DNA from: Utricularia gibba
Taxonomy: Eukaryota; Streptophyta; Magnoliopsida; Lamiales; Lentibulariaceae
Direction of reading: 5' to 3'
Assembly: GCA_002189035.1 (NCBI GenBank)
Contig: NEEC01000028.1
Location: 105,001-135,000 of the forward strand
DNA: 30,000 nucleotides
Under the pieces are notes generated by a model that ran no database searches, had not been told where the DNA came from, and was given only the letters and a program-made list of their open reading frames with translations. Every line of letters begins with the position of its first letter. The first letter of the stretch is position 1. The position numbers and the translations under genes were made by a program. Below are positions 621-29,262 of this stretch, piece after piece.

Positions 621-800
621 CGAGTTCTTCAAACCGTAGGCCGGTACCTTTCGGTCGAGTACTTCGTGCCGTAGGCCGGTCCCTAACTAAAGAGCTTCTT
701 CAAACCTCCGGCGATAGGGAGAGGTTGGAAAGTGCTCGACCGTGGCGGGGACCGGCCGGAATGCGGGAGTTCGTTTGCGGTAGGTTTGAAAGAAAGACTT
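621..800. repeat. mosaic repeat locus
   Basis: This patchwork is built from words that recur across the window: ttcaaaccgtaggccggt, tcggtcgagtacttcgtgcc, ccctaactaaagagcttctt, ggcgatagggagaggttgg, ctcgaccgtggcgggg, accggccggaatgcgggag and ttcgtttgcggtaggttt. It lacks the accaattgaaggcc core. No coding function is apparent. Confidence 0.8.
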
Positions 801-991
801 TTAGGGATGTCTTGCTGCTTTTAGACTCGACAAAAAGAGAAGCTGGAATTACATTGTGCCATTCATCCTGATTCAAAGCGCTCTCTTACTTACACTGGGA
901 CGGACAGCTTCACGCTTGATCTTCTAGGCTTACTGCCCACAGGCTTCCTCGTTCTATTCACTATTCTAATCATTCTCAACATTCGTTCCCC

Positions 992-1363
992 TTGACTGCC
1001 ACGAAAAACCAAGCTCTACTACATAAGGTTTCGAGAAGAAAGAAGTTTGAAATCCTGTCCTTTACTAGTGGCACATTCCGGCAGCAACTAGATAAAAAAT
1101 CGAGAAATTGTCACGATGGAAGACTAAGCGGTGCCCTGACTTCCTTGATGAATAGGTCCTTCTTTTTGAAACGACTATCTCGCTCTAAAGGGGGAGAGGC
1201 ACGGAGTGGTGAACCTCTGATTAAAGAAATTGATCCTCAAAGGCTATATCAATACTCTACTATTCTTTACAACTTCCTATGGACAAGAGGAAGCCTATTC
1301 ATGTGTGATTTCGCCCGCCCCATATTAAACCATTGCTGGGGCTGTAAGCGCGGCTTTTGTTAA
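992..1363 (+). CDS. unrecognised 123-codon open frame
   Basis: This ATG-initiated frame encodes a basic, Lys/Arg/Ser-rich protein with no signal peptide, clear membrane segment or family motif that I recognise. It ends in a Cys-containing tail (residues about 104-123) with no convincing zinc-binding spacing. It has no repeat words inside it and no recognised neighbour. The length exceeds what chance often gives, but plant mitochondrial intergenic DNA commonly holds frames of this size. It may be a chimeric or chance ORF; conservation in related genomes would decide. Confidence 0.2.
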   Translation: MTATKNQALLHKVSRRKKFEILSFTSGTFRQQLDKKSRNCHDGRLSGALTSLMNRSFFLKRLSRSKGGEARSGEPLIKEIDPQRLYQYSTILYNFLWTRGSLFMCDFARPILNHCWGCKRGFC

Positions 1364-2395
1364 GTTTACTTAGATTGGTTGAACCTTTCACCAAGGTTCC
1401 TCGAGGACTGATCCCCGGGTAAAGAAGACAGAGACAGAAAGAGAAAGAAGGACTTACTCCACTCTATTGACTCTACTTACTTCCCTTACAGGACAGGATT
1501 ATCAACTAAACGAATTCCTTCACTTCGTTCACCCGGAATGGAAATGAAGCGAGTTAAAGAACAGAGCGGAGCGAGTAGAGAAAAGAGCGTAATGAAATGA
1601 AGCGAGTAGAAAAAAGTGAAGGTAGAACGAAACGAGTGTAACATTAGTGAAACGAGTAGAAAGAGTCAAAATTGCACTCGCATCACTAGAGAACCCGAAA
1701 TCTGATTCAATACGAGACTAGACTATTCAAAGCATCAAGAAGAAAATGTCTAAAACTCTCCCGGGCAGGCACGCTCCAGGGTTTTGAGTGAATCCACACT
1801 TTTCAAAAGAATGAGATTGGTTTGCTACTCTTCTTTAGATTCAGATATTCCAGCTAAAGCCATTCTTTTCTGCATCTTGACTTCTTCCGGATAGAAGCCA
1901 GATTGCTCTGCTCTGAAAGGTACGTCGCCGCTAGAGCTTCTGCACTCCTTCCTTCAACATCCTACACTTCGCTGTGACTAGAGCTCTTTATCTCCAAAAA
2001 CTCCAAAAGCATAGTGTTCGAAGCGAGAGACCGCGTTTAGGCTAGAGAGCCTTTGATTGAGTCAGCGAGTAGGTCGCATAGGAACGAGAGAAGAAGCTTG
2101 TTCAGTCTACTTTTGCTTTGGTGCAACGAAGTGAGTCAGATCTGATCTTAGCCAACTCTCATTTGACTAAAGTCTCTTAGATGCTCCGAGCCACAGTTAT
2201 CAGTAACACACATTCCTTACGCAACTTTCGATTCCGCTCGTTTCTATACTCGTTCCACTTCTAAACACTATACTCGCTTCATTTTATTCCGGGTGGGAAC
2301 AAGGAAAGAAGTCTTCAAGGCAGGACCCCGGAGACCACATTCTAGTAAGAGGAAAGGAAGCTAGACCTGATAGGCAATCAAGGCTGCATGTAATT
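1364..2395. other. anonymous intergenic DNA with GAGCGAGT-type repeats
   Basis: I see no gene. Two clusters of a second short repeat family lie here, at about 1,534-1,660 and 2,228-2,290. They are built from gaatggaaatgaagcgagt, gagcgagtagaa, aacgagtgtaac and their complements. The rest shows no recognisable homology. Confidence 0.5.
1534..1586. repeat. 53-bp inverted repeat, copy A
   Basis: These 53 bases are, by eye, an exact reverse complement of 25,867-25,919. The flanking bases diverge at once on both sides. This is in the size range of plant mitochondrial repeats that recombine rarely. It belongs to the GAGCGAGT-type family, but this pair is much longer than the other matches. Confidence 0.85.
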
Positions 2396-2397
2396 CA

Positions 2398-2540
2398 GTA
2401 ATCGTTGATGGGCCAGTAAACAGCATCTTCCTGCACAGGAACTCCCTTAGTTTTGGGTTTGAAGGCATAAGCAGATCCTCTTAAAGTGTTGAAGAAGCTC
2501 TTGCCACTGTCGGCATTACCTATGTTTAAGGAAAAAAAAA
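2398..2540 (-). other. unidentified minus-strand coding-like fragment
   Basis: Read on the minus strand, a frame upstream of a TGA near 2,410 gives about 42 well-formed codons ending EDAVYWPINDY. It includes a GNADSGKSFF stretch and follows a T-run (about 2,529-2,537, minus sense) where a frame slip could lie. It has no ATG and no family I can name. Its composition looks more like a real protein end than the surrounding frames. It may be a relic of transferred nuclear or other DNA. Confidence 0.25.
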
Positions 2541-2789
2541 GTGCGATCTTCTGGCAAAGCAAACCTTGTAAATAAATACGGATGAGCCCGTGGGATGAGA
2601 CTTTACTTCAGATCCTACTCTTCTTGAAATTGTAGCGCTGGTTCTGCTTTCACATCTGGATGCCGAGAATCGTCTTTCTATCTACAAAGAGCAGGCATGT
2701 GTGTGACTTTAGGATAAGGCGCTATTTGCCATTGAGCTTTCTTTTAATATGCCTTTATGTATAACCGGTCTTGGCAAGAATGCCTTTTT

Positions 2790-3010
2790 TTAGAAGAAGC
2801 AGCGGTGGACGAAGTGAAGAATGAGGGCAATAGTTGAGTTCAAAGGGCAACCGATGCCATATAGACAATAAGAACAAAAAGAAGAGAATTTTGTAGAGAG
2901 ATGAATGTCATTTTTTTGAAGTAAAAAACTAAGGACTCTAGAGCCTAAATGACCTAAATGTTGATGCCAGATGTCGCCTGAGACGCCAGAAGCAAGCAAG
3001 CCATGCAAGT
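2790..3010 (-). mobile_element. Ty1/copia fragment (GAG-pre-integrase zinc finger)
   Basis: The minus-strand translation contains IWHQHLGHLGSRVLSFLL followed by CSYCLYG. This is the H-x-H...C-x2-C layout of the GAG-pre-integrase/integrase zinc-binding region of copia polyproteins, where WHxRLGHP is the hallmark. The frame slips after the second Cys, and no integrase core, protease or LTR follows. It is a dead fragment, presumably of nuclear origin as usual for LTR retroelements in plant mitochondria. The family call is fairly firm; the exact ends are not. Confidence 0.7.
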
Positions 3011-3336
3011 GTGGTGAAACGAGACCCCTGCTTGCCCTCGATCATGAGGCCGTAAGCTATAATCGACATATGATGCTAGAACTTTTGAAAGGAAAATCCA
3101 AAAAATGAGTACTGATGAAGGCTGGAGCCCTATCTATGGACTGCTTTTAGGGGAAGAGAAGCATCCAAATCTTTAGCATAAAGGGCCCATGAGTTTCCCA
3201 CCGTTCTACAGAAGAGGCGGTTTTCTTTTCGTGCTTCTTGACCACTGCTCAGAGCTTGTCAAGGAAGACTCGCCCGACCGGGTCGGCCTTTTTTTTTCGG
3301 TGCTAGCATCAGAGCAAATAGCTTTTTAGCCATCTG
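3011..3336. other. anonymous intergenic DNA
   Basis: No gene is recognised. The only structured spot is a short GC-rich inverted repeat (ccgacc/ggtcgg) followed by nine T at about 3,275-3,297, just upstream of the trnM relic. I do not call it a terminator. Confidence 0.45.
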
Positions 3337-4336: not shown

Positions 4337-4744
4337 TTGACTTCTTCCCGTTCTCTCCCTATCGGTCGAGCCACTTCGTTCCTCGGCTTTTTTCGAGCTC
4401 TCCCTACCTCTCACTTCGTTCGAGCCCGAAAAACTACCGCATTCAAACCCGATAGCATGAAAACCTACCGCATTTTCCCTGACGGTCGAGATCTTGAAAC
4501 CGTAGGCCGGTCCGTAGGCGATAGGGAGAGGGATTCTTTCCTCTTCTCCATCGAGGCGCTATGGTTTTGCCTTGATACTGTGGTCAAAGAACTAATCAAC
4601 GAGGAGACCCGGCTCCCAACGAATGGAAAGATCTGCTCCATAGCCATACCATTCACGGATAGAACCAGTCGGCTCGACCTCAAATACTCTAGTAAACCAC
4701 TCGATGCTCTCTCGAAATCGCGCTATAGACGAAGCTTTTTATAG
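4337..4744 (+). CDS. chimeric 135-codon frame made largely of repeat words
   Basis: Residues 1-68 are translated mosaic repeat, such as PDGRDLETVGRSVGDRER. Residues 69-135 come from unidentified sequence. It ends 53 bases from the 3' end of trnK, on the opposite strand. The same repeat-encoded peptide appears in other frames of the window (near 17,700 and 19,480), which indicates an accidental ORF created by repeat insertion. I recognise no conserved domain. Confidence 0.15.
   Translation: MTSSRSLPIGRATSFLGFFRALPTSHFVRARKTTAFKPDSMKTYRIFPDGRDLETVGRSVGDRERDSFLFSIEALWFCLDTVVKELINEETRLPTNGKICSIAIPFTDRTSRLDLKYSSKPLDALSKSRYRRSFL
4345..4540. repeat. mosaic repeat locus
   Basis: The patchwork includes ctccctatcggtcgagcc, cctacctctcacttcgttcg, cgaaaaactaccgcattc, aacccgatagcatgaaaacc, ctgacggtcgagatcttg, aaaccgtaggccggtcc and gtaggcgatagggagaggg. 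It supplies the N-terminal two thirds of the frame at 4,337-4,744. Confidence 0.8.
4553..4571. repeat. 19-bp inverted repeat, left copy
   Basis: gaggcgctatggttttgcc occurs here, and its exact reverse complement lies at 5,165-5,183. The pair encloses trnK and the palindromic repeat locus next to it. Confidence 0.8.
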
Positions 4745-4797
4745 AATCCTTTCGCCGGGATTTTTTTCTTTACTCATAGTAGAGTGTAAGGCGGGTT

Positions 4798-4870
4798 TGG
4801 GTATAGCAGGACTTGAACCTGCGACCATTAGGTTAAAAGCCCAATGCTCTACCAACTGAGCTATACACCC
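4798..4870 (-). tRNA. trnK: tRNA-Lys (UUU)
   Basis: On the minus strand the 73 bases fold as a standard cloverleaf. The acceptor gggtgta pairs with tatacccA in the usual offset, the D-arm is gctcagttggtagagc, the anticodon stem-loop is ttgggcttttaaccta with anticodon TTT, and the T-arm is gcaggttcaagtcctgc. It reads AAA/AAG lysine codons in mitochondrial translation. No CCA is encoded, so it is added after transcription. It lies between two mosaic-repeat loci with 18 bases before the next repeat, and is enclosed by a 19-bp inverted repeat. No promoter is evident. Confidence 0.97.
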
Positions 4871-4888
4871 AAATCTTAGAATGTTTAG

Positions 4889-5090
4889 GATGGATGGACC
4901 AATTGAAGGCCAGAGGCCGGAGTTCGTTTGCGGTAGGTTTTCATGCGGTAGTTATCAGGGCTCGAACGAAGTGAGAGGAGAGGTATTGTGTGAATTGCCC
5001 TCTTTCTTTTCCGCACCAACATACCCTACCGCATTCCGGCCTCTGGCCTTCAATTGGTCCCTCTGGCCTTCAATTGGTCCATCCATCCTT
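4889..5090. repeat. mosaic repeat locus with inverted ends
   Basis: The left end reads ggatggaccaattgaaggcc followed by agaggccgga. The right end carries its complement tccggcctctggcc then ttcaattggtcc, with the 20-base unit doubled, and closes with atccatcc. The two arms could form a stem of more than 30 bp around about 115 bases of other words: ttcgtttgcggtagg, ttttcatgcggtag, ctcgaacgaagtgagagg and caacataccctaccgc. The 72-codon frame inside (4,881-5,099) is repeat-encoded and not called. Confidence 0.85.
5041..5080. repeat. tandem duplication of a 20-bp repeat unit
   Basis: ctctggccttcaattggtcc occurs twice head to tail with no spacer (5,041-5,060 and 5,061-5,080). The same unit in the opposite orientation is nearly duplicated at 27,381-27,419. 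This helps define the unit boundary. Confidence 0.9.
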
Positions 5091-5164
5091 CCTTCGTAGC
5101 CAAATCCAAATCTGATGATATGCTTTGGCGATCTTACCTACCAAAGAAAAGGGGGTGGATGAAG

Positions 5165-5363: not shown

Positions 5364-6500
5364 GTGGACTGTTGCACAGAAAGGCCGACAGAAGACTCTG
5401 AAGAACTGGACGATTGGGGCATGATGAATTCCATGCTCGTCTCGTGGATATTCAACACGATCGAGCCAACACTCAGATCAACCATCACATATGTGGATGA
5501 CGCTCGCGAGCTGTGGATTGACTTGCAACAAAGATTTTATGTAGGTAACGGACCGAGAATTCAGCAGCTTCAGTTTCAGACTGCAATGTGCCGACAAGAT
5601 GGACAGCCCGTTGTTACGTATTATGGGCGATTGAAGAAGCTAATGTCATTTTACGAAACTGTTGATACGTCGACAGGAGGAGGAGCGTGTGCATCAATTT
5701 CTTATGGGTTTGGATAGCACGCTCTATGGTACAATCTGCACTCCCATTTTCTCTATGGAATCTCTGCCGAATGTAAGCCAAGCTTACTCTATGGTAATTC
5801 GTGAAGAAAGCCAAGCCACCAAACCGCTGCAAGAAATCAAGAGGAACGTAGCGAGGCGGTGGCGTTTGCTGCTCCACCAGTGCTTGCGCGATTTGCTCGG
5901 AGGAACTGGAGTAGGATGGGTTTGAATGCAGTGAGTGCAGAAAAGAAAGTTCACTTGTGGCATCGTCGATTGGGCCATCCTGCTTAAGCGGCAGTTGCCT
6001 TACTTCCTAGTGTGTCATCATTAACAGGGGTATTAGATGCAGTGGTATTTCTAAGTTATCTTCATGTGATATTTGTTTGCGAGCTAAGCAAACGAGAACG
6101 GCATTTCCTCTCAGTGATAGTCATGCTAATTCTGCTTTTGATTTGGTTCATTGTGATGTCTGGGGGCCGTATAATTACGCATCTTAGTGTGAAGCTTTCT
6201 ATTTTTTGACAATAGTGGATGATTTCTCTCGGACAGTTTGGATTTATCTGTTTGCCGCCAAAAGTGAAGTCGCTAATATGTGAGATTTTGCATGATGGTG
6301 CGAATTCGGGTTAAGAGTTTGCGCTAAGATAATGGCACCGAGTTTACTAGCTAGCGAACCTCAGGCATCATTCATCAAACAAGTATTTACAATACTCCTC
6401 AGCAGAACGGGCGCGTGAAGCGGAAACATCGTCATATCCTAAACGTGGCCCGTGCACTAAAGTTCCAAGCAAATCTTCCAATTGACTTTTGGGGCGAATG
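5364..6500 (+). mobile_element. decayed Ty1/copia retroelement (gag and integrase)
   Basis: In order: a gag domain of the UBN2 type (5,400-5,650, with WIFNTIEPTLRSTITYVDDA and a PRIQQLQ segment), a frame slip, then EERVHQFLMGLDSTLYGT (about 5,680-5,735). The protease region is lost. WHRRLGHP of GAG-pre-integrase follows (about 5,960), then the zinc-binding CDICLRAKQTRTAFPLS (about 6,060), integrase core words FDLVHCDVWGP and FLTIVDDFSRTVWIYL (to about 6,255), and a last core piece, DNGTEF and [14 protein letters not shown] (about 6,330-6,430). Several frame slips and stops make it dead. Similarity stops at NLPIDFWGE, exactly where the mosaic repeat begins. No LTR was seen. Confidence 0.88.
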
Positions 6501-6615
6501 ACCAATTGAAGGCCTACTAAAGATCTCGACCGGAGTTCGTTTGCGGTAGTTTTTCGGGCTCGACCGTGGCGGGACCGGCCGGAATGCGGTAGTTAGTTTG
6601 CGGTAGTTATCAGGT
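6501..6615. repeat. mosaic repeat locus abutting the broken copia element
   Basis: It starts directly at the copia break with accaattgaaggcctac. It continues with agatctcgaccggag, ttcgtttgcggtag, ctcgaccgtggcgggaccgg, ccggaatgcggtag and agtttgcggtagttatcagg. Its position suggests that the repeat took part in the event that truncated the element. Confidence 0.85.
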
Positions 6616-7428: not shown

Positions 7429-7463
7429 ATCTTCCTTTGCTTTGCCAAATAAGAAAGAAGCTT

Positions 7464-8641: not shown

Positions 8642-9254
8642 GATCTGTAGGTAACTTCCCGGACTTTCATCAATGGTTGATAAGACAGAATCTCGGACAA
8701 AAAGAAAAGTGGTCGTGAAAAGAAAAGAGACTGCCTTTGCTTTGAATGCTTACCCAAGCTCTGACTCGGCTGTGAACAAAGAAAATCCTCTCTTAGAGAA
8801 TCGACCGTTCACTCATGCTTTCATGGGAACAAGGAATAAGCGGTCTTATCTGCAGTTGCCGATCTGATCTTTTCTTTCCTGTGTGTAGACGAGACTAAGA
8901 AGACTTTGTCTTCCGCGGTTAGATCTATATATAATCTTTTTGGAATACCTGTCGCAAGGTAAACAGGAGTTGGAGGCTCAAGCTAAATGATACCGGCGCA
9001 AGGTAAGTCAATTCTTTAGTTTAGGGAAGGATCCCGAGTGCCATCGATTTCGCTCTTGGAATCAGGGAAGTTTCATTTGGAAGAGTGGGCATAAGAGGTC
9101 TTGTCTCTTTCCCGTGCTTGAGGAAGCGAGTGACTCCCGGTCTTATTTAAAGAGAGTGAAGTGAGCCATTATCTCAGGGAAAGAAGCAATCAAAAGGGAA
9201 AATACACCCCCACCTTTAGACACTAAATACACACACACCTTTAGATGATTATGA

Positions 9255-9332
9255 ACATACCCGATAGCATTCCGGCCGTAGGAACGCGACCGATAGGTAG
9301 AGGTCTTCGAACCTCCGGCCGGTCCATCGAGC
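9255..9332. repeat. mosaic repeat locus
   Basis: The words present are catacccgatagcattccgg, ccgtaggaacgcgaccgata, ggtagaggtcttcgaacctc and cggccggtcc. It lies just past the 3' end of the ccmC frame (minus strand) and lacks the accaattgaaggcc core. Confidence 0.75.
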
Positions 9333-9354: not shown

Positions 9355-10277
9355 TTAAGACTTTCTTATATGCTTCTGGCGGAATGGATAAAAAACGAGA
9401 CGGAATCCATTTCCTATTTTCTTTGTAGTGGAGTTCCAAGGCGGTCTATTCGAGGCATGAAGAGATATTCTTATATATATTCTAAAATCTAAGTAGTGAA
9501 AAAGAGACTCAGCGGGTGAACTAAGTTTTGGTATTCCTTCTCGAGCTTCTATTTCTTCCTTTAAAGAAGATTCGAGAAAAGATGGAATAGGAAGACGTGT
9601 TTCCAGAACGAACAAGATAGGGGTTGATAAGGGGGAGTTAGCAAAGTTAGACAAGATTGGAATGGGCATAGGAACATGTATTGATGTACCAGATCGGCTA
9701 ATGCTCCCAGGTTGATGCGATGTATTCCACCAGTTGACTGAAGATTTGATTATTGGTATATCGATCGGTCCTGCACGGATTGAAATAGGAGCCGGTTCGA
9801 CAGGAAGCTTTTGAAAATACAGTGCACCTAGGTAAATAAGGAACGAGATGAATACAGAGGTTAAACGAGCATCCCACACCCAAAAGGTGCCCCACATAGG
9901 TCTTCCCCGAAACCCCCAGTAACTAAGGTAAACAACGTAGAAAAAGCACCCATTTCTGTACCGGTTCCGGAAGAGCGAAGAAAAAGGGGATGTTTTGTTA
10001 ATAGGAACAATAATGTGTTTATAGCTGTAGCGATATAAACAAGAATACTCATCCGAGCCGCAGGAACATGTACATACGGAATACGAGAATTTCCACCTTG
10101 TTGAAGATCTAGTGGTGCTACCCGAAGACAACAATGAATAGCCATCGCTGTTAAGAACAACCGAGATCCAATGATCATTTGCGCGTAGCTCCTGGTCTTT
10201 GACATCAAAAAATAAGGATGGACGGACCAATTGAAGGCCTCCGGCCAGAATGCGGTAGGGTAGTTAGAAAGGGACAT
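9355..10277 (-). pseudogene. ccmC: cytochrome c maturation protein CcmC, frameshifted with altered ends
   Basis: CcmC is the membrane protein that handles haem for loading CcmE in system I cytochrome c maturation. The N-terminal part lies in one frame (stop at 9,861): MSKTRSYAQMIIGSRLF from 10,205, then HVPAARMSILVYIATAINT and SSGTGTEMGAF. The C-terminal part is one frame over: GRPMWGTFWVWDARLTSVF with the tryptophan-rich haem-handling motif, then SVNWWNTSHQPGSISRSGTS. The frames meet at a C-run (9,913-9,917), where loss of one base explains the break. Upstream of MSKT the frame runs into a mosaic repeat that replaces the usual N-terminus. The C-terminus leaves the family after PAESL and adds about 49 unrelated residues. 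A sequencing slip in the C-run could also explain the frameshift. Confidence 0.9.
10215..10275. repeat. mosaic repeat locus fused to the ccmC 5' end
   Basis: ggatggacggaccaattgaa leads into ggcctccggccagaatgcgg and tagggtagttag. Read on the minus strand it forms the codons for the non-homologous leader before MSKT of ccmC. It shares the atggac/ggatgg edge with the trnK-side locus at 4,889. Confidence 0.85.
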
Positions 10278-10615
10278 GTGATCATTTTGTCCTAGCTAGT
10301 GAAACAAGAAAGACATGGATTGTTATACGCAGGCTCGATGGAATTGCCCATTTCATCAACCCTTGCTTTCGCTCCGCTCGTGCGTGGCACTCCTTGCTCG
10401 CGGAGCGAATATAAGAAAAAAAAAACTCTTTCTTGGCAACTTGGACAACATGTTGCTATGGATTTAGCGGAGAAAGAGTATAGCGTAGCTACATGAAACC
10501 AAGTCATTCTTTCTAGAATACTTGCTGGCATGCGAGACAAGACTGGAACCAAGGCCAAGGGCAGGAACTCCACCAACAGGAACAACAAGAACCCTATCAT
10601 CAACCAATAGGCCAG
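10276..10615. other. anonymous spacer between ccmC and the next repeat locus
   Basis: A 103-codon minus-strand frame (10,292-10,603) starts with a hydrophobic stretch, but the opposite strand is also open for much of its length. The plus strand from about 10,550 reads as a Gln-rich stretch in one frame (QGQGQELHQQEQQEPYHQ). No family is recognised and neither frame is called. Confidence 0.45.
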
Positions 10616-10862
10616 GAACGAAGTGCTCGACCGTTAGGGACCGGCCTACGGACCCATTGAAGGCCAGAGGCCGGAATGCGGTAGGAAAGAAGGCCGGAGG
10701 TTTGAAGATCTCGACCGGAATGCGGGAGTGTGAAGGTAGGGACCAATTGAAGGCCTACGGTTTCAAGATCTCGACCGGAGTTCGTTTGCGGGAGTCAGGA
10801 AGATCTCGACCGAAAGGGGGAAGACGCTCGAACGAAGTGAGAGGTAGGGAAAGGGGAATTGC
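10616..10862. repeat. longest mosaic repeat locus in this part
   Basis: It begins aacgaagtgctcgaccgtta and continues gggaccggcctacggaccca, ttgaaggccagaggccgg, aatgcggtaggaaagaaggc, cggaggtttgaagatctcg, accggaatgcgggagtgtga, aggtagggaccaattgaagg, cctacggtttcaagatctcg, accggagttcgtttgcggga and later ctcgaacgaagtgagaggta. Nearly every word recurs elsewhere in another order. It lies immediately downstream of the rpl2 exon (minus sense). The 125-codon plus frame across it is repeat-encoded. Confidence 0.9.
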
Positions 10863-10870
10863 AATGAAGT

Positions 10871-11800: not shown

Positions 11801-11869
11801 TGTCTATTTCAGTTTCATTTTATTCTCAAGGCAATGTTCAACGCGCTTACTCCTCCTTTTCTTATCCTC

Positions 11870-11928
11870 ACACTCCCGCATTCCGGTCGAGATCTTCAAA
11901 CCTCCGGCCTTCAATTGGTCCATCCAAC
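11870..11928. repeat. mosaic repeat locus upstream of rpl2
   Basis: The words are cactcccgcattccggtcga, gatcttcaaacctccggcc and ttcaattggtccatccaac. It lies 70-128 bases upstream of the rpl2 start, so rpl2 exon 1 is bracketed by mosaic repeats on both sides. Confidence 0.8.
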
Positions 11929-12599
11929 TCTAGTTGGAAAGAGGGGGAAACCTAAGCCTATGGCCATGTTGAATAAAGAGAAGCCGAATCAGGTTTGGAA
12001 CTATAGCAAAAAATGACACGCAGGAAAGATATATTCCATTTCCATTTCGTTTACTTGACTACAAGACTCTTCTACATGTGGTTAACCGAATTAGTCACTG
12101 TTTGTTGGCCTACCTACAAACTTGCCGGGAGCTGCACCGGTCAAGTAGCGCCCAGCAAGAAAGACAATGTTCAACTTCCTTTAAAGTCGCGGAATTCCCT
12201 TCCTGACGATGTTTAGTTTCCCCTAACTCCACTCGGAGGAAATCGAAGATTGAAACTAACATCCCAACGAGCGAGCGGAAAAAAATGGAGCGAGTATAGA
12301 AGAACGAGACGAAACAACGTGTAGTCGAGTAGAAAGAGTAGAAAGTTTGGCCCAATCCTAAGGAGAATGCCAGTGCAATAACTTTGCGGAGGTTCCGTGC
12401 TAGGGGTTGAGTTCAAGTTGTAGTAGCGTTCCATGCATAGGATGTTCTAGGTTCGATATGGAGTAGTATATTCCAGTAGAGTCTTTCCTCTACCTAGAGG
12501 CATCTCCTGAAAGAAAGTGCTTTTCTCGTATGAGTATGATCAGGGGCGAGTTTATGAGCGGTCGATTTTTTAGGGGGTTGGAAAATGGATTTTTTACAT
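11929..12599. other. anonymous spacer with a GAGCGAGT-type repeat
   Basis: No gene is recognised. A copy of the second repeat family lies at about 12,266-12,345 (aacgagcgagcggaaaaaaa, tggagcgagtatagaagaac, gagtagaaagagtagaaag). Short open frames exist on both strands without recognisable homology. Confidence 0.5.
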
Positions 12600-15120: not shown

Positions 15121-16575
15121 ATCTGACAAAGCCCTTCTCTCGTAAAGAGATAGTGTTCCTCTATCCATGGGTTGTTCCCTGTCTAAGTCTAATAGAATCT
15201 CTGTAGCTAGAAAAGCGGCTACAAGAACAGCCCCCGCTCCGGAAGACCAACCAAAGGTTATATTCCCTTCGTCCTTACCCACAGGAAAGGGTATATATGA
15301 TGTCGTGCCCTGCAACCCGATAGTGACATAATTCCGATCAAATCAATCCCTGAAGACTGATTTTTACTTATGATCTTCCAACACTTCTTTAAGCTAGTAC
15401 CACCAAGTACTGCGTATTTGACGAGTAAAGCTCAGCCTAGGCTTCACCATGACCAGAAATCTCTTTGATTGTGAAGGCCCGGCCCTCTTTTCCACTTGGC
15501 AGCCTCTCTTAGTCAAGTACCCCAGCGTTCTTGCTTGCAACTAGGTTTGGAACGCCGTTGTAGCTAGCAGTTAGAGAATGAGTTGTTGGCTTATTGGATA
15601 TCGGATACGGGGATTAGCTGCAGCACTGTTTTGTAAGTACAGAGCAACAAACTGACCACCGATCTTCAGTTTGGTTATACCATTTCATGATATGAATGAA
15701 TCTATCAGATTGAGGCAGTAAGCAGCGGATTCTCGCCAAATAGCGATCCATCCTGTTCCATGGTTGGCACTCCGTTTAGCTTCTAAATGTGTATTGCTTA
15801 CAGGGAGCCAGGTCTCGACCAAGAGACATATCTGGTCTCCCTTCAGTCGGATACACACCTTGGGGTTGCCTATTGATGAAAGGAAAGTAGGCACGAACCT
15901 CTTTCCAGTTCCCTTTAGGTGCCCCGCGGCCAAAAGCCACTCTACGAGTGATCATAAAGTGGGTTTCTTCGCCCAACGCCAACAGCCCTCGAGCAGTGAC
16001 GCCCAACCGGTCTATCTTTTTCTAATTACAAAAAGTTGATCGACCTAAAGGATATGGAACTGTTGAATTTGGCACCAGGATTCTATCTCTTCCCCTTTTC
16101 TTTCCCACCAGGAGAAAGAAAACTTCGTATTCTGTGACGCCATTAGTCTTATGACTCAGGTTATAGACCAGTGTGTGAAGCTGATCCACCCTCCTTCCTT
16201 TCCCGGCGGGAAAGAAGTTACCCCTCTAGCACTTTCTATCAATTGTGATAACCACATTGTGATTCCAATTGAACAGTGTTAGAAAGAAGAGCAAGTTACC
16301 CTTCATTTCAAAGGGGACAAACTCTTCCCTTTAACTCGTTCCAAAGTTCACACCAACAATGCGCATAGATCATCCCACTAAAGATACCTTTAGACTTGCC
16401 CATCATCTTGTGACAGGCATCAACTCAGCATCTTTCGCTTCGGGGTGATCGATACCACACCGTTGTTCCTTCAGGATCTGGTGGTAGGTTTATATAAGAT
16501 TTCAATATCAGTTAGGATATTATTCCTATACTCCAGATGGAGGAAGAACATAAAGGTAGACCGGAGACTCACTTT
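15121..16575. other. anonymous DNA, possibly more degraded foreign sequence
   Basis: No gene is recognised. Minus frames at 15,103-15,315, 15,685-15,933 and 15,776-16,006 are short and match no family I know. The frames around 15,700-16,000 are open in several registers at once. Its position directly after copia gag makes decayed retroelement DNA plausible but unproven. Confidence 0.45.
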
Positions 16576-16765
16576 CACACTACCGCTTCCCCCTAACGGT
16601 CGAGCCCGTCACACTACCGCTTCATGACTCCCGCATTCTTTCCTACCTTCACACTACCGCATTCCGGCCGGTCCGTAGGCGATAGGGAGAGGTTGGAAAG
16701 AGCTCGACCGATAGGGAGAGGGATTCAATTGGTCCGTAGGCCTTCAATTGGTCCTTCCTTCGCTC
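16576..16765. repeat. mosaic repeat locus
   Basis: The words include cacactaccgcttccccct, aacggtcgagcccgtcacac, atgactcccgcattctttcc, taccttcacactaccgcatt, ccggccggtccgtaggcg, atagggagaggttggaaaga and gtaggccttcaattggtcc. The gatagggagagg word appears twice here. Confidence 0.85.
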
Positions 16766-16879
16766 GTTTCCGACCAATCCAAGGCCGTGTTGGTTCGAAT
16801 CGACCAACCTTCCTGCTTGTAGCTAAAGGTTTGTAATCCCTAAAGCGGGCATCCCTTAATCGATCTTTTTCGAACTGGA

Positions 16880-17629: not shown

Positions 17630-17765
17630 AATGGTTAGGGACCGGCCAGAGATTTGAAGAAGCTCTTTAGTTAGGGACCGGCCTACGGTTTCAAGATCTC
17701 GACCGTTTGCGGGAGTGTGAAGGTAGGAAAGAATGCGGTAGGTTTTCATGCTATCGGGAACGAGT
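17630..17765. repeat. mosaic repeat locus
   Basis: The words are gttagggaccggccagagat, ttgaagaagctctttagtta, gggaccggcctacggtttca, agatctcgaccgtttgcggg, agtgtgaaggtaggaaagaa and tgcggtaggttttcatgcta followed by tcggg. There is no accaattgaaggcc core at this locus. Confidence 0.85.
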
Positions 17766-18324
17766 TCAAATACTCGCGATTTCCATGTCTATCGGCGGTA
17801 ATCCTCTTTGTTTCGAGTGCTGTTTATTAATGGCATCTCAACGGTTGGGAACCCATTAAGACTACAAACGTTTAGCCGTGATCGAATTGACTTCTCCGAG
17901 AAGAAGAGCACTAACTATTTCCAGCGAAACGACTCTCACTCTCGCTTTGGCATCATACCCACAACTCAGTGGAGTACCCTGAACAGGCATCGGATAGAAA
18001 TGTTATAGCAGGATTCTGATGATCGACTTGAAGAGTGAACAAAGAACACTTCGGAGTCCTGGAGCAACCTAGCTTCCCAGACAACTCAGAGAAGTACACG
18101 CAACTAGAAAATGAAAGTCGGAAGTAGTGCTTTCTTCTTTTAGAAGCATAGTCCTAACTTTCCTCCGGTAGGTAAGCCCTAGGTCATTAAGCTATCTGTC
18201 GTGTTTTCGCTAGAGATCTAAGATTCATGTCTCTGTCGTGCCGTCCCTTCCAGCGATCCGTGGAGTTTGCCTTTAGTAGACCTGCTCTGTCTATGAGTAG
18301 TACTTGGAATAGTTGCTTCTAAAG
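17766..18324. other. anonymous spacer
   Basis: No gene or tRNA is recognised on either strand between the mosaic locus and the copia fragment. The 66-codon frame at 17,808-18,008 has no recognisable homology. Confidence 0.45.
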
Positions 18325-19375
18325 ATTGTACAATCTGTCGCAAAGCTGCAACGCTTGCCCTTTCATTCTAGTACCATTCATAGCTCCAATATTTAGGACT
18401 TACTTCATGTAGACGGGGCCCTTACAAACTAGCATCTTAGCAAGGTGCTCATTACATTTTTACATTGGTTGATGATTTCAGTCGTGCCTCTATTTTCACT
18501 ACCCGAGGGATTTTACACCAAAGAAGTTGCCCCCCGGGGAGAGAAAAACATAAACATTTGTTGGAAGTGGCTAGAACCTTAACTTAATGTCTCAGGATGG
18601 CTTGCCTAAAATGTTCTGGGGGGAGTGCATTCTTGCTGCTACTTACATCATCAATCAGCTTCCAACTCCTTTAGTGGGAAAGACCTTTCTTCCGACTTTC
18701 TCATCAAAAGCCCTAATATGACAGAGAGTATTTGGTAGCTTGTGTTTTGCTACTAATCTTTCTCCTACTAAGGATAAATTTGATGGGAGGGCACATAAGT
18801 GTGTTTTCATTGGTTATTGTTTGTGGAGGTCATAAAGCTTACAAGTTATATAACCTCACCACTGGAGATGTTTTTGTTAGTAAGGATGTCACCTTCTTTG
18901 AACATCAATTTCCTTTCAGCAGCAAACACTGCTTCTTCTATCTTACCTTTACCTACTGTTTCTATTACTGATAGAGATTTTGCTACTCCTTTTGAGAACT
19001 ACCGCATTCCGGCCTCTGGCCTTCAATTGGTCCCCCACATCTGCAAATTCAGATATGCCTTAAAATACTTCACCATCAGTATCACCACATAACTCTGTTC
19101 AATCCTCCCCTTCAGAATCTGTTTCTTCAGCTACTCCACCCTTCGACTTCTCTTCTCAGCCTGATTTGCCTCCGGAATCTATTGTTCCCAGACATAGTAC
19201 TCAAATTTCCAAGAGGCCACAATGGTTATCTGATTTTGTCTCAAATGTCACTACTTCTACTGCCACACTTCCGCCATCTTTTATACCATCTTCTTCTTAT
19301 ATACCACCTGCTTATTCTTTCCTTCTTTCCTCTCCTTTCAGTCGAGTGTTCCCATCCTCGTACTAACTAAAGAGC
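18325..19375 (+). mobile_element. decayed Ty1/copia retroelement (integrase and linker), with an inserted repeat
   Basis: In order: a degraded integrase zinc-finger end (LPFHSSTIHSS, about 18,355-18,390), DLLHVDGA (about 18,398-18,421), FTLVDDFSRASIFTTRG (about 18,457-18,510), HKHLLEVARTL, then MFWGECILAATYIINQLPTP (about 18,608-18,670). Next come VFGSLCFATNLSPTKDKFDG and HKCVFIGY (18,728-18,822), then LTTGDVFVSKDVTFFEHQFP (about 18,861-18,920). The Ser/Pro-rich linker ending in ISKRPQWLSDFV (about 19,206-19,242), typical before the reverse transcriptase, completes the piece. Frame slips and stops abound. A mosaic-repeat copy interrupts the linker at 18,999-19,033, and the fragment ends where another locus begins. 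Confidence 0.88.
18999..19033 (-). repeat. minimal mosaic-repeat copy embedded in the copia linker
   Basis: ctaccgcattccggcctctg leads directly into gccttcaattggtcc. Before it the copia linker reads DRDFATPFEN. After it the linker resumes as PTSANSDMP one frame over, as expected for an insert of 3n+1 bases such as 34. It is the shortest isolated core-bearing copy in the window. No clear target-site duplication is visible. Confidence 0.75.
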
Positions 19376-19496
19376 ACCAACATACCCGATAGCAAACCCC
19401 CCTACCGCATTCCGGCCTCTGGCCTTCAATTGGTTCCTACCGCAAACGAACTCCGGTCGAGATCTTGAAACCGTAGGCCGGTCCCTAACGGTCGAT
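19376..19496. repeat. mosaic repeat locus at the copia end
   Basis: It begins caacatacccgatagcaaac and continues ccctaccgcattccggcc, tctggccttcaattggttcc, taccgcaaacgaactccggt and cgagatcttgaaaccgtagg, then ccggtccctaacggtcga. Copia similarity stops at its left edge. Confidence 0.85.
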
Positions 19497-19734
19497 CCTA
19501 AACCTGAGCAATTCCATGTGCCAGCTTGCAACACAATTATGACCTTTGACGTCTGTCGCCAGAGAGGAGGAAGGCAATAATAAAAACACTCACAGAAGCT
19601 GAGAGATATGCGGTGCTTGCGGCTTTGAAAAGGAATCTTTCCCGACAAGCAAGCCGAGTCAAGAAATGGGTAAGCTGTATCCCTGAAGAAATGGACAAAG
19701 AATGGACTTGGAAGTGAAGGACATATTATTCTTC

Positions 19735-19965: not shown

Positions 19966-21180
19966 CTCTCTTATTGTTGCGACAATGAAGCCCTTGAAAC
20001 TGTAGCTTCCACTTTGATTTTCATGAATGATTTGAGTCTATTCGCATGTGCATCGACTAGAGATCGTTAAATAAGATCACGACAAATAAGTTGTATCCAA
20101 TCCCCTTGAGGGATCAGGGTTCGCATTCCTAGGTCGCGCCTTTCCGGGCTAGAACACTTGAGAAAGGCAGATCCACAAGTCGGGGCATATCCGATTGAAA
20201 TGGAAGATGATCTTATACACGCCACCTAGTTCCATATCTTCGATCCTGTCTGTAAATATTTTAGTACCCAGAACGTAAGGACTGTTTAGGGAAGTTCTTG
20301 TTGCATCAGTTGAAAGCCCTCCTTCTTTTATTCCATTCAGGCAGTTCCGCAAGCTTGTCAAGCGCTAGTGTATACCCGGTCTTCAAGTCCATCTCCACCA
20401 AGAATCTGGCATAATGGAGTCTCTCTTTCGACGTTTAGTTTCACACTGGCAAGGAAAGTCGGGTATATCCCATCTCGTTTGGAGAGGGGGGAAAGAAAGC
20501 GGTATTGGTGTTTCAAACCGTGTCTGGTATTCACGGCTTCTGTCTCACCGTGACTCGGCTCGTGTTCTACTCGTAAGTAGCTACTCGGGCCCTTGTTCTT
20601 AATAGTCATAATAGGGCCTATGCTTTTTTTATGGAGTTGCTGTTGTTCCTGCAGCTGCTTGATCCAGTAGCTGTTAGTTCCGATCCGAGTTCGCAAAAGA
20701 TCCAACCACAAGTTCTGCTCTAGTCCTCCCCTGTGGTAGCTCGAATTGCTGGTATGTCTGTTGCTGCTGTTCCCGTAGCAGTAGTTGGTTTATGAAATCC
20801 TTCTCCTGCGGATGTTCGCCTAAGCAGTTTCCCTATTCCTAATAGTCGGCCGGTTCTTCATTTGCGACTGGAATTTTGGTTACCCAGCTCTCAAGGAAGA
20901 TTGGAAGTAGGTACCTATGTCCATGCTGAATTGGTGACACCATTAGTCTTATTTCTTAAAGGCTATAGAACTTGCTTGGGTAAACCAATTCTACCATTGA
21001 TCTCATTCCAAGGTGTTCAAAAAAGTCTATTTTCTATCGTAGACCTTTGGCTCCTTAAAGTTGCCTGACCAGAACATCACTCCCTCATATCCCGACAATA
21101 CAAGAGATCCTTTCGGGTCTCCTGTACTGCTAGGAATACAAGGAACGAAGTGCTCGTTTCTATACTCGCTCCATTTTATG
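19966..21180. other. anonymous DNA with unassigned frames
   Basis: No gene is recognised. Open frames at 20,149-20,361 and 20,358-20,711 (minus) and 20,862-21,068 (plus) match nothing I know. A minus-strand stretch near 20,630-20,810 reads Gln-rich in one frame (INQLLLREQQQQTYQQF), which may be retroelement-derived. A second-family repeat lies at about 21,139-21,192 (cgtttctatactcgctccat). Confidence 0.45.
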
Positions 21181-21200
21181 TAGCTCGTTCCATTAGTATG

Positions 21201-21252
21201 AGGGACCAATTGAAGGCCAGAGGCCGGAATGCGGTAGGGGGGTACTCGACCT
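21201..21252. repeat. short mosaic repeat locus
   Basis: agggaccaattgaaggccag is followed by aggccggaatgcggtagggg and then ggtactcgacctcat. It joins directly to a second-family repeat on its left (about 21,140-21,192). Confidence 0.85.
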
Positions 21253-22920: not shown

Positions 22921-22925
22921 GAATG

Positions 22926-23010
22926 GAGGATGGACCAATTAAAGGCCTACGGACCGGCCTACGGTTTCAAGATCTCGACCGTCAGGGACCGGCCGGAATG
23001 CGGGAGTTAG
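22926..23010. repeat. mosaic repeat locus
   Basis: The words are ggatggaccaattaaaggcc (one changed base in the core), tacggaccggcctacggttt, caagatctcgaccgtcaggg and accggccggaatgcgggag. The first part shares the ggatggacc edge with 4,891 and 10,216. Confidence 0.85.
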
Positions 23011-24592: not shown

Positions 24593-25044
24593 TTCCTTAC
24601 TTTTTATTTCACATTCTTCAAGACTGGTTCAGAACGCCGCATCATCTCCTTCCGTCATTAGGTTTCTCAATTCGCTTTTCCTATTCACTAGTACACTGCG
24701 CTAACCAACTCCATTACAGAGACCCAACGAGCGAGCGGAATGGAAATGAAGCGAGCAGAAAGCGTACCTTAAGAACCTTCCACGAACTTCTGCTCCTTCT
24801 CATGATTAGGGGGGAACATCAACTACTTTCACACTACCGCAAACGAACTCCCGCATTCTTTCCTACCGCATTCCTCTTCATACCCGATAGCATTCCTGCC
24901 TACGGCCTTCAATTGGTCCCTGACGGTCGAGATCTTCAAACCTCTGGCCTTCAATTCAATTGGTCCCTCTCTCCTTCTCTTTTCGCTTCTACAACTCCGC
25001 TCTTACGCTTACTCCATTTAACACATTCTCTAAAAAGGCGGTAG
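24538..25044 (+). CDS. 168-codon chimeric frame, antisense to the ccmB start
   Basis: The first 18 codons are antisense to ccmB. The middle (residues about 19-97) comes from ccmB upstream sequence and a second-family repeat (TSERNGNEASR). Residues about 103-150 are translated mosaic repeat, including AYGLQLVPDGRDLQTSGLQF. No domain is recognised. Composition from an antisense gene edge plus repeats argues for a chance ORF. Confidence 0.15.
   Translation: MVYIRRSVYDIVQERVVSFPYFLFHILQDWFRTPHHLLPSLGFSIRFSYSLVHCANQLHYRDPTSERNGNEASRKRTLRTFHELLLLLMIRGEHQLLSHYRKRTPAFFPTAFLFIPDSIPAYGLQLVPDGRDLQTSGLQFNWSLSPSLFASTTPLLRLLHLTHSLKRR
24722..24765. repeat. GAGCGAGT-type repeat upstream of ccmB
   Basis: caacgagcgagcggaatgga then aatgaagcgagcagaaagcg. 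It shares ggaatggaaatgaagcgag with 1,535 and with the complement of 25,900-25,919, and nearly the same words with 17,480. It lies about 130 bases upstream of the ccmB start codon. Confidence 0.75.
24828..24968. repeat. mosaic repeat locus
   Basis: The words are cacactaccgcaaacgaact, cccgcattctttcctaccgc, catacccgatagcattcctg, cctacggccttcaattggtc, cctgacggtcgagatcttca, aacctctggccttcaattca and attggtccctc. The last core holds an internal duplication of caatt (24,947 onward). Confidence 0.85.
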
Positions 25045-25061: not shown

Positions 25062-26298
25062 TGGGACGGCTAATCTAAAGGGCAACTTACGACTAGAACT
25101 AAAAAACAGGTCACCATATATACAGATTGAGAATGCGAAGCACTACAACTGAAACTCTTGGGCTTCACCTTATTACATTACATGATATGCGGAGTATTCC
25201 CTCAGGTGAATAGAAAGACCTAAAGATAAGAAAAATGAACCGAAAGAAATGAATGAATGCTCTTTTGGGAAAGAGACTAAGGTGGAGTGGAGGAGAAAGA
25301 AAGGATGGAAGACATTTCGCATATCGGGGAAGGCATATCGCATTTCGCTAACCTATCTTTTTAGGCGTGTCCCTATACTATCATGAGAGAGAATTGCATC
25401 TGGCATCGGAAGGAGATATGATATCTTACCTAGCAGGGAAAGGATAGATCTTTTTCTTGCCTAGCTTCTTGGAGTGCCAAGATCTAATGGAATTCCTTTT
25501 CCCCGGGAGCCTTTCCCAGTCCCACTTGTTTTAATAGGAACATCTTTTAGCTAAGGATATTTCTTCTTCGCTTACGCCCCCTGTAGTGTAAAAGAAAAGT
25601 CTTTTGCATAAAATAAAGAGCCGGCTTGTCCAGTACGCAATAACAGAGGATAGAGGGAAGAGTGTTGATACCCCGTATACTAAGAGTGATGAAAATTCCC
25701 AGTATTCTCCCTTCTAGGTTAAGCCTTTCCTTCCTATGTAACCAAGTCGTCCTCCTATGAACCTATCCCCGCCTAAAGGATAGGATATAAACCAACTAGA
25801 AAGTCAAGGTACTTCTAACTAGTTGCAATTAGAAGATAGTTATACGAATCAAAGAGATGTCGCAGATCTTTTCTCTACTCGCTCCGCTCTGTTCTTTAAC
25901 TCGCTTCATTTCCATTCCGCTCGTTGGGTCAATTTGATCTTCTCGCATATCCGCTGTACCCTCTCTGCTGTTAAAGAAACATCCACTCAAAGAAGTGGAT
26001 TTGTCATGGTAAGGTTCTTATCTGCTTTCACGTGGAAACAATAGATGGGAACGAAGTCACTTGATTTACAAGAAGAGGAACTGGCCTAAAATCTCAACTC
26101 TCTCCACCCACTTCTCGACTTTCCCAGCAACAATGAAGACTCTGCGAGTGAACTAGAGATCATTAAAGCTATACAAAACAAAGTTTTAGTATTTATGATC
26201 GAGCTTCTTTCAAGAAGTGCCAGCCTCGTACACAGGCAACATAGATTCAGAAGACTACAAGCGAGATTCTCATCATTCTATCGGTCTCGGAACTGATC
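25062..26298. other. anonymous spacer downstream of atp9
   Basis: No gene is recognised. It includes the second copy of the 53-bp inverted repeat (25,867-25,919). The part next to atp9 (about 26,050-26,298) is the expected place for the atp9 3' untranslated region, but no clear stem-loop was seen. Confidence 0.5.
25867..25919. repeat. 53-bp inverted repeat, copy B
   Basis: Reverse complement of 1,534-1,586, identical by eye across 53 bases. Recombination between the two would invert the roughly 24 kb between them, which contains nearly all the genes of this window except atp9. Confidence 0.85.
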
Positions 26299-26523: not shown

Positions 26524-26999
26524 TTGAGAAAAAACAAAGAACTTCCTCTCGCTTTTTCAAGAACTCATCACATCACCCCACTGATTGATTCTCTTTCTCT
26601 GCCCCCTTCTATATAAGATAAGGGAGACCATATAGACGACGGAGTCCGTAAAGTACTGAAAGAACTCTTTCTATATGCTGGTCGAGATCCGGATAAAAGA
26701 GTCCCTTCCAGCAGATTACGCTGAAAAAGAAAATGGCGGGCGCTAACAGGTCTCGCTGACCTATCGCGTGGTAAAAAGAAAAAAGTACGAAAGAATAGTA
26801 AACGGAGCACACTCCATAATACGCTCCTGTTGTTCTTCCCCGGTCAAACAGTCGGTTTTCTACTATGCCCCGCCACTGCATTACAAGGAGCTAAAAAGAC
26901 TCCCGACCCAAGAATTCGAAGAATTCTTGAACGCTTGTTGCGGAGGCCAAGTACTGCCTTACTTCATTAGCATAATCTCCCGGATTGTTTTGAGGAGGT
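26524..26999. other. atp9 upstream region
   Basis: This stretch precedes atp9 on the minus strand and probably holds its 5' untranslated region. Three frames are open for long distances (26,568-26,810 and 26,609-26,881 on minus, 26,768-27,043 on plus) without recognisable homology, so none is called. No CRTA-type promoter could be chosen with confidence. Confidence 0.4.
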
Positions 27000-27118
27000 T
27001 CGAAGACCTCTCCCTATCGCCGGAGGTTTGGAACACTCTTTAGTTAGGGACGAAGGCCGGAGGTTTCAAGATCTCGACCGGAATGCGGGAGTGTGAAGCG
27101 GGAGTGTGAAAGAGTTGG
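27000..27118. repeat. mosaic repeat locus upstream of atp9
   Basis: The words are cgaagacctctccctatcgc, cggaggtttggaacactctt, tagttagggacgaaggccgg, aggtttcaagatctcgaccg and gaatgcgggagtgtgaagcg, with gcgggagtgtgaa doubled. It has no accaattgaaggcc core. Confidence 0.8.
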
Positions 27119-27365
27119 TGGTTGAATTCTGAACATCTTTCCCTGTGAAAATGTTGTCTTTTCCCTCTTACTCTACAATACAATATTTCTGGTGTCCGAG
27201 CGTTCCCTTGTCTGTCTTTTCCCTCTAAAGGTCGCTTTTTTGTTGATTTGATGTGTATTTTTCCAAAGATGAAGACCTAGAAAGCAATAGAGCTAGAGCT
27301 TGTTGAGAAAGTCGCTTTGAAGATGGGCACCTTTTCCCTATAGGTAGTAGGGAAGTCTGAAGCGA
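27119..27365. other. short anonymous spacer
   Basis: The sequence is T-rich, with the word ttttccctct occurring twice about 55 bases apart. No gene is recognised. Confidence 0.4.
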
Positions 27366-27600
27366 TAGCAAAGGCCTACGGGACCAATTGAAGGCCAGAG
27401 GACCAATTGAAGGCCGGAGGCACGAAGTACTCGACCGAAAGTACGAGGACCAATTGAAGGCCAGAGGCCGGAATGCGGTAGGGTATGTTGGAGCTCTTTA
27501 GTTAGGGACCGGCCTACGGTTTGAAGAAGCTCTTTAGTGGCGGGACCAATTGAAGGCCAGAGGCAGGAATGCGGTAGGTTTTCATGCGGTAGTGTGACTA
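27366..27600. repeat. large mosaic repeat locus with four core copies
   Basis: Cores begin at 27,383, 27,402, 27,449 and 27,545; the first two are in tandem (unit gaccaattgaaggccagag, then ggccggag). Other words are cacgaagtactcgaccgaaa, gtacgaggaccaattgaagg, ggccggaatgcggtagggta, gttagggaccggcctacggt, ttgaagaagctctttagtgg and gcggtaggttttcatgcggt. The 90-codon minus frame across it is repeat-encoded. Confidence 0.92.
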
Positions 27601-27752
27601 GTGAGATCAATTTCTAAGCAGGAGATACCCTCACTAGAAATAGGATTTGCTATGTTTGGCGATAGGATACTTTGATACTCAACGAATGGAACGTAAGTGA
27701 AATGAGTATAAGACATTGACAGACATCACTATCTTCTTAGAAACCGGGCTCT

Positions 27753-28040
27753 TGGATTGTTGATACAGGTGCCACGAATCACGTGTGCTTTGACCTCCAG
27801 TTATTTGATCGATACAACCCTACCACACAACCAACCCCGGTGCATCTTTCCAATGGAACAATAAAGATGATTCAAAATGTTGGAGATGTATCCTTAACAC
27901 CTAAAACACGTCTTGACATGCGTCTTACATATCCCAACCAGAAAGCTCATTCCCTGCTTCCTTTCTGTGAATAAACTTGCTGCCAGTGCCTCGATTGTTT
28001 ACTAGGAAAGACGGGAAAACCGTTTGAAAACCCATGTGGA
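27753..28040 (+). mobile_element. Ty1/copia protease fragment
   Basis: WIVDTGATNHVCFDLQLFDR contains the DTGA active-site motif of copia aspartic protease (27,762-27,773). VHLSNGTIKMIQNVGDVSLT follows, the substrate-flap side of the family. After a frame slip LSVNKLAASAS (about 27,968-28,000) matches the segment before GAG-pre-integrase, and weak traces continue to about 28,040. The left end joins unrelated sequence about 150 bases after a mosaic locus. It is dead. Confidence 0.85.
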
Positions 28041-29089
28041 ATCTCGCCATATGTACACCAGAGTCGACCTTCTTTGCCCGGAAGTGTCACGACAATGGAT
28101 GTCCAAGCGGAATTCCACTACTGTGTTGGCTCCACCCTAAGTTTATAGGCCAGTCTTTTTCCACGATTGCGATGGTATCCGCTCTTGGGGCCGGTTCGAG
28201 AAGGCTCTCTATTCGGTACGGAACTGACTCAATTTCTTGACGTAACTCATCTAAGTGCACCTAGGACTGGACTAGGACGGACGGGGCTTATGCCAAGGGT
28301 TCATGATATCCTTTCTTATGCTTTTAGAGAGTCTATCTTATGGGTGTCGCTATCGGCTAGCGCCGTGACTCTAGGGCATTCTTTCGCGCCTAAGACACTC
28401 TACTCTAAAAGAGCTTTCTTCACCTGTCCTTTTTCTATGTAAGTGAATTCTAAAGAGGTCTAGGACCACAGGATAGAGGGCTCCAAAGTCGCGCCTTTCC
28501 GGTTTCATGCGTATGGTGAGTTGGTCCCATTCCTTCTTCGTTCCTAGGTATAGAAATTCTCTTGGGTCGAAATCTTTGATTACTCATGGGCCTTCCAGGA
28601 TCACTTTTCTAGCTTGCTATTCATATTCTTTACTCTCGCTGGCCTAAGAAAAGCACTACATTGAAAGTGCAAAATTTGACTGAGAAAGCTTCTATTTCCT
28701 TTCCTTTCAACAGTCTATTCTACCGTAGCGAATAACTCCTGAATCACAAGCAAGGATAGGAGAATCGAAGACGAAAAAAAGGAGTCCCGGGCCTCAACAT
28801 ACCCTACCGCAAACTTTCAAGGACTGACTTTCCGTTGACACCTACTAGTTACCGCTCTGTGGGAACATCTTAATCTCCGATCTACGAATAAGAAATAGGA
28901 AGCATCTGGCCGAGTAGCAGTCAGTAGGCGGAGAAGAAGTCAAAGGCGAATATCTCTTTGCCCCCCTCTTCAGTCAATGCTTTTGCCTTCGTCTCTTTTG
29001 CCTTTTTTATGACTAGTCAGCAAGCTGAAAAAGCCCTTTCCAGGTAAGATCCAATTCCTTAGGTTTCCCTATACTCTTCCTTAAACCTA
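28041..29089. other. anonymous intergenic DNA
   Basis: No gene is recognised. It contains the inverted copy of the 19-bp repeat at 28,478-28,496 (gggctccaaagtcgcgcct) and an isolated mosaic word caacataccctaccgcaaac at 28,795-28,814. The 91-codon plus frame at 28,167-28,442 is unassigned. Confidence 0.5.
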
Positions 29090-29262
29090 CCTTCACACTA
29101 CCGCATTCCGGCCGGTCCCTGACGGTCGAGATCTTGAAACCGTAGGCCGGTCCGTAGGCGATAGGGACCAATTGAAGGCCAGAGGCCGGAATGCGGGAGT
29201 AAGGAGTCCCTAACTAAAGAGATCTCCCTACCTCGTACTTTCGGTCGAGCCCTCATGGAATT
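29090..29262. repeat. mosaic repeat locus
   Basis: The words are ccttcacactaccgcattcc, ggccggtccctgacggtcga, gatcttgaaaccgtaggccg, gtccgtaggcgataggga, ccaattgaaggccagaggcc, ggaatgcgggagtaaggagt, ccctaactaaagagatctcc and ctacctcgtactttcggtcg. A plus-oriented and a minus-oriented part meet inside the locus. Confidence 0.88.

Follow-up and report, generated by a model that had tools for sequence, protein, structure and literature searches.

Short polar mosaic elements with apparently exchangeable words in the mitochondrial DNA of Utricularia gibba

The stretch of DNA analysed here, referred to as the window, is 30,000 nucleotides (nt) long and corresponds to positions 105001-135000 of a 267,500-base contig (C515) in the 100.09-Mb assembly of Utricularia gibba. 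Readings of ccmC, ccmFN and rps3 on this contig resemble plant mitochondrial proteins in protein searches and, to judge from its sequence, the contig is a plant mitochondrial chromosome. Plant mitochondrial genomes are described as rich in repeats and readily recombining (PMC6981420, in its accessible text). In the portion available of the 2017 U. reniformis paper (PMC5516982), the mitochondrial DNA of U. gibba is given as circularisable at 270,037 bp, and the mitochondrial genomes of U. gibba and U. reniformis are called highly repetitive, with essentially no shared synteny. The window holds ccmC and many copies of a short repeat assembled from recurring strings (words), one of which is a core of 14 bp. 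Our results show that these loci constitute one family of short polar mosaic elements, whose words are probably exchanged in place by short-tract copying.

The features of the window are the following (window coordinates, strand, content):

618-797, minus, then plus from about 713: element without core
4353-4593, minus: element; nuclear copies L044 and L045 each span part of it
4886-5091: two elements of opposite polarity, exact cores 4898 (plus), 5045 and 5065 (minus)
6500-6610, plus: element, exact core 6501
9254-9325, both word polarities: core-less vocabulary
9355-10277, minus: ccmC gene in two frames with an apparent frameshift in between
10214-10262, plus: short element, exact core 10226; overlaps the 5' end of ccmC in antisense
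10614-10851, plus: long element, cores 10652 (one mismatch) and 10742 (exact)
11811-11943, minus: element, exact core 11906
16572-16801, minus: element, exact core 16739
17634-17775, plus: element without core
18997-19034, minus: minimal element made of core (exact, 19018), AGAGGCC and GGAATGCGGTAG
19314-19517, minus: element, exact core 19421
21200-21251, plus: short element, exact core 21205
22925-23008, plus: element, core 22934 (one mismatch)
24826-24984, minus: element, exact core 24904
26996-27114, plus: element without core; a word block differs in nuclear copy L049
27371-27597, plus: element with four exact cores, 27383, 27402, 27449 and 27545
29086-29303, mixed polarity, mainly minus: element holding a plus core segment at 29167 (exact)

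A tRNA-Lys (TTT) gene at 4797-4871 sits between two family elements; an Rfam scan of the window at gathering scores returned nothing beyond tRNA.

About twenty copies of the core had been reported in the initial annotation of this DNA, and this number holds: 17 are exact and lie at the starts it had listed. Among its three other starts, 10,648 and 22934 mark copies with one mismatch (the former actually at 10652), and 24,944 belongs to a copy at 24946 with three mismatches, exceeding the one or two changes it had allowed. Cores missing from that list have two mismatches (16720 and 16773) or three (20305). Other words occur exactly in the window 11 (GGAATGCGGTAG), 9 (ACCGGCCTACGG), 7 (TTTCAAGATCTCGACCG and GATAGGGA each), 5 (TTCGTTTGCGGTAG), 4 (GTGTGAAGGTAGG) and 2 times (TTTTCATGCGGTAG and GAAGCTCTTTAGTTAGGG each), while GGGAG by itself, with 68 occurrences, is uninformative. 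Sixteen window loci carry at least two words, to which the short copy at 10214-10262 and the core-less stretch at 9254-9325 are added. Loci with vocabulary but no core do exist, as had been noted earlier (e.g. 618-797, 9254-9325, 17634-17775, 26996-27114).

Contig-wide word counts cover the 212.5 kb of the contig that are readable. Here the core was observed 70 times against 0.0023 expected, GGAATGCGGTAG 59 times against 0.014 and AAGATCTCGACC 50 times against 0.045 (order-1 Markov model, both strands). Family words occupy 96 loci with at least two matches to the family word list, 14.5 kb in total. The core is one of the commonest words, and we saw no further special status for it. Its exact form occurs 9 more times in the remaining assembly. 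A scan of viral contigs with a 16-mer core gave 10 stretches with a single match each, which were taken as chance.

The words follow a grammar. The vocabulary had been thought to recur in freely changing order, as unordered modules; this is not supported, since 515 of 524 adjacent word pairs share the same strand and their order is biased. Among word pairs that co-occur at least 8 times (62 pairs), the order is single in 12, reversed in at most 10% of cases in 24 (the 12 single-order pairs included) and reversed in at least 30% of cases in 12. Two further sets of words were encountered. One family, of the CTCGTTTCTATACTCGCTTCA type (window 1534-1586, 2236-2260, 12263-12345, 21152-21176 and 25867-25919), has all 51 of its 51 adjacent word pairs on the contig co-oriented and may obey the same rules as the main family. 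Another set, around GGATGGATGG, AATTCAG and CAATTCCATAGCGCC, is found contig-wide, for example at L027 and L032; GGATGGATGG occurs 19 times against 0.39 expected in the contig, and GGATGG can be followed by words of this set or by those of the main family.

The joints between words were approached by a four-combination test, in which 8-nt contexts, two on the left and two on the right, are considered around strings of 2-8 nt. Of the 989 strings with at least 10 usable occurrences each, 33 show all four context combinations; we call these strings hubs, and many of the 33 overlap each other. The leading hubs by number of quartets are TGCGG (38), GG (28), GAATGCGG (27), ATGCGG (12) and GGACC (11), whereas CG, with 687 occurrences, yields zero. 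The test recovered the joints GGACC, GCC, CTCGACCG, GGTAG and TGCGG, and together with the word differences from nuclear copies described below it bears out the initial proposal of short words that can be interchanged and meet at tiny shared ends. Each element was also tiled with the longest stretches that it shares exactly with other elements. The mean overlap of neighbouring matches is 10.2 nt (median 8, n=299, 101 elements), against a mean of 1.15 in control mosaics with blunt joins (20 replicates). As the overlaps exceed those of blunt mosaics, words evidently meet at short shared strings.

Element ends are not sharply defined. Of 110 runs, 25 begin near GGATGG, 23 with a G-run before GGACC, 16 with GG and a GAAG word and 46 in other ways, and GTGTGAAAG is a frequent end (24 against 1.7 expected). 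Because word content, starts and order all vary, no single consensus extends end to end across the loci, which agrees with the earlier description; the end-to-end alignment, one order and fixed ends of a transposon or miniature inverted repeat transposable element (MITE) were not found in this family. As a rival explanation, whole copies of a common type of dispersed repeat, or of a miniature mobile element, could have inserted and then been scrambled by deletion and duplication between their internal short repeats. Recurrent starts and ends, strong polarity and order, and tandem duplicates such as cores 27383 and 27402 speak for this explanation, but alternative words of unrelated sequence can fill the same slot, and we consider the explanation unlikely.

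The base composition of the elements, 53.1% G+C against 44.1% elsewhere, brings to mind selfish elements of the GC-cluster or hairpin type, which would use secondary structure or an RNA intermediate to spread and merge; in the part of PMC4478555 consulted, units of yeast GC clusters are described as merging and being shuffled. Folding of the elements is no better than that of shuffled sequences (mean z score -0.03 for 86 elements, 2 of them below -2, RNA parameters), and 60 control segments gave a mean z of 0.0. Four family-like examples, of which only the third is exact in the contig, gave z scores of -0.03, -0.86, 1.27 and -0.44 with DNA parameters. An origin of this kind is accordingly improbable.

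Nuclear copies of the elements allow comparison place by place. Eight core-bearing nuclear loci were retrieved (L001-L008, with L005 overlapping L004); the match to the contig is at least 100 nt long in seven of them and only 36 nt long in L003. The comparison comprises 13 stretches from 12 elements, one element being represented twice, in part by L044 and in part by L045; L003, L047, L048, L051 and L052, which gave no usable comparison, are outside the 13. The alignments were inspected by eye to call swaps. Whole-word differences inside the element are clear in 10 of the 13 stretches (L001, L002 with L008, the first stretch of L004, two elements of L006, L007, L044, L046, L049 and L050) and tentative in one (L053). 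L002 and L008 are two nuclear copies of one contig place. At the start of the element 4353-4593, the contig has AAAGAATC where L044 has TTCGAAGA, and in L050 one slot is filled by TTT versus AAA. Observed exchange tracts range from 3 to about 40 nt.

L006 is 97% identical to the contig over 1629 nt; its 253 element columns contain three difference clusters, its 1389 flank columns none. Within the element at contig positions 234168-234279, the inner string between GAAGGCC and GTGTGAAGG differs, while the flanks show no block difference; the nuclear word string recurs in the contig at 244219. On the contig, this element and an inverted one at 234731, about 0.45 kb away, have a common exact 65-mer that includes GGTATGTTAGG, a string that occurs nowhere else in the readable contig, and a block of about 40 nt in the first element matches this neighbour. 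The element at 234731 is the probable donor of a conversion at 234168-234279. In the second, neighbouring L006 element, GGTA stands against TATC.

Both flanks match in five swap stretches (L001, L002 with L008, the first of L004 and the two L006 elements). In these five, words differ between matching flanks, as expected for short-tract conversion, and one of them has the probable donor just named. An automatic count, which took in 11 alignments but neither L050 nor L053, found 20 clusters in 1394 element columns versus 12 in 3916 flank columns. The nuclear copies display replacement beyond mere loss or gain, which speaks against whole-copy insertion with later scrambling; the private variant found at two loci only and missing from the nuclear copy of one likewise weighs against this as the sole process. 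From their alignment with the contig, the nuclear copies appear to preserve an older or alternative mitochondrial state. Two observations concern nuclear transfers themselves. Contig pieces 185212-185377 and 188549-188669 occur as a joined pair at six nuclear places with 90-95% identity, so that a single chimeric nuclear copy seems to have been multiplied. L047 contains two mitochondrial pieces (170657-170774 and 266955-267025), one of them an element fragment, at 100% identity, which suggests recent transfer.

Element sequence is also present in three conserved genes, for which other species were compared via proteins only, 120 matches being listed of 1216 (ccmC), 955 (ccmFN) and 588 (rps3). 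One element is antisense to the start of ccmC, and the ccmC frame runs through it. At the element position, most listed relatives that keep the ccmC start have LLQ, and the motif LLQP lies near the start in 58 of the 120. The element peptide NWSV was found in none of the 120 listed; the short pattern RIPA occurs within the first 60 residues of two (P0091 and P0112), and longer element-peptide patterns of this frame in none of the 120 over the same residues. The motifs RGGHRE and R.E.KSG lie 30 residues apart in the ccmFN of this contig, versus 18 or 19 in all 73 measurable relatives of 120 listed; two element patterns tried were found in none of the 120, and the Genlisea aurea protein is without a comparable insert. 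For rps3, the spacing is 33 residues in U. gibba versus 20-27 in the other 82 measurable of 120 listed, and of the 120 U. gibba alone carries the element peptide. The rps3 of U. reniformis shares residues on either side of the element (RRMDG ... ARGS) but lacks the core part, a pattern that entry or growth of the element within the genus would be expected to give.

Both ccmC and ccmFN contain apparent frameshifts, that of ccmC being either real or from the assembly, and for this reason the intactness of the two genes is not claimed. The frameshifts would fit an assembly or consensus artefact in a contig full of short repeats. Against such an artefact, the contig reading of rps3, insert included, agrees at 100% identity along the full query with a separate U. 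gibba entry in UniRef (of origin not seen), the same family with matching flanks is present in nuclear contigs, and random error does not produce an exact 65-mer with a private variant. We therefore hold an artefact to be very improbable.

We propose that the words are exchanged as follows. A broken or stalled end would pair with another member of the family via a shared hub of about 5-20 nt, copy anything from a few nucleotides up to some tens, and return via another shared hub, so that the outer flanks stay as they were. Polarity and rough order would survive the shuffling of words because pairing occurs in register. The pathway could be synthesis-dependent strand annealing or microhomology-mediated template switching; homologous recombination, strand annealing, break-induced replication and microhomology-mediated variants are all reported from plant mitochondria (PMC6981420, accessible part). 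Hub-like words may prime the same copying at breaks elsewhere, and such microhomology-primed insertion would give rise to new elements, including those in genes. A bolder and rather doubtful variant is that the spreading unit is the individual word: strings of about 8-25 nt with their own pairing ends would act as minimal copy-and-paste units, replacing each other and entering genes, so that word exchange would outpace point mutation there.

Several observations weigh against in-place exchange or its proposed mechanism. Some 55,000 bases of the contig lie outside the word counts. No swap is seen in two of the 13 stretches (the second of L004, and L045), and difference clusters exist in flanks too (8 in L001, 2 in L008, 2 in L049). 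The aligned flank is one-sided in L044, L046, L049, L050 and L053 and absent in L007. In the decayed copies L001, L002, L004, L007, L008, L049 and L053, several calls depended on reading through C-to-T changes. A nuclear copy may derive from another mitochondrial haplotype, which leaves the direction of change unproved. The hub and overlap tests cannot tell strand annealing, break-induced copying and end joining apart. RecA-type and Whirly genes are each present at 3 loci in the assembly, which gives no indication that surveillance has been lost. Domain searches of the assembly did not identify MSH1; a single GIY-YIG match lies about 0.6 Mb from a MutS_V match on the same contig (C412), with MutS_V on 7 contigs, a placement by which MSH1 is neither shown nor excluded.

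The nuclear copies provide side-by-side pictures of very short exchange tracts at known places, in a family that has made its way into conserved genes. Sequencing of populations or sister species makes the lengths of tracts and hubs, and the rate, measurable.

No title or abstract opening describing this family was found in the literature covered, on the family itself and on modular, mosaic or hairpin repeats of organelles; subscription journals largely do not belong to that literature. The sequence words of the family led to one paper, which by its entry deals with RNA-RNA interaction prediction and is unrelated. Several known systems are comparable, as far as the accessible portions of the cited papers describe them. 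Bpu elements of Cycas and Ginkgo (PMC8297867) are likewise abundant short interspersed elements of a seed-plant mitochondrion. They consist of one 36-bp sequence with AAGG ends, at sites mostly orthologous between two Cycas species. The U. gibba family shows no match to this AAGG-ended consensus; as the initial annotation had supposed, it is not Bpu, the closest 36-mer having 12 mismatches to the Cycas and Ginkgo consensus alike (ungapped, readable contig). Short motifs of cucumber mitochondria, known to us via PMC4478549, are also spread through the genome and involved in recombination, but the text seen there describes neither a word grammar nor word-by-word exchange. Organelle repeats of Volvox (PMC2670323) are similarly short and nested into larger mosaics. 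Unlike our family they are hairpin palindromes, mostly with TAAA or TTTA loops, and in the mitochondrion they are intergenic and intronic, save one ribosomal RNA module.

Yeast GC clusters (GC42 and relatives; PMC4478555) are likewise short, GC-rich, dispersed mitochondrial units, of which 403 sequences with a common 13-nt start fall into 76 types; as a further likeness, stand-alone and merged forms occur at the same homologous site. Those clusters are palindromes with AG or ACT repeats on their flanks, whereas the U. gibba family is without excess folding, and its grammar is polar and longer, with words replaced at a fixed place. Of the systems compared, yeast GC clusters come closest in behaviour, and the family is best read as a novel variant of known mitochondrial repeat shuffling.

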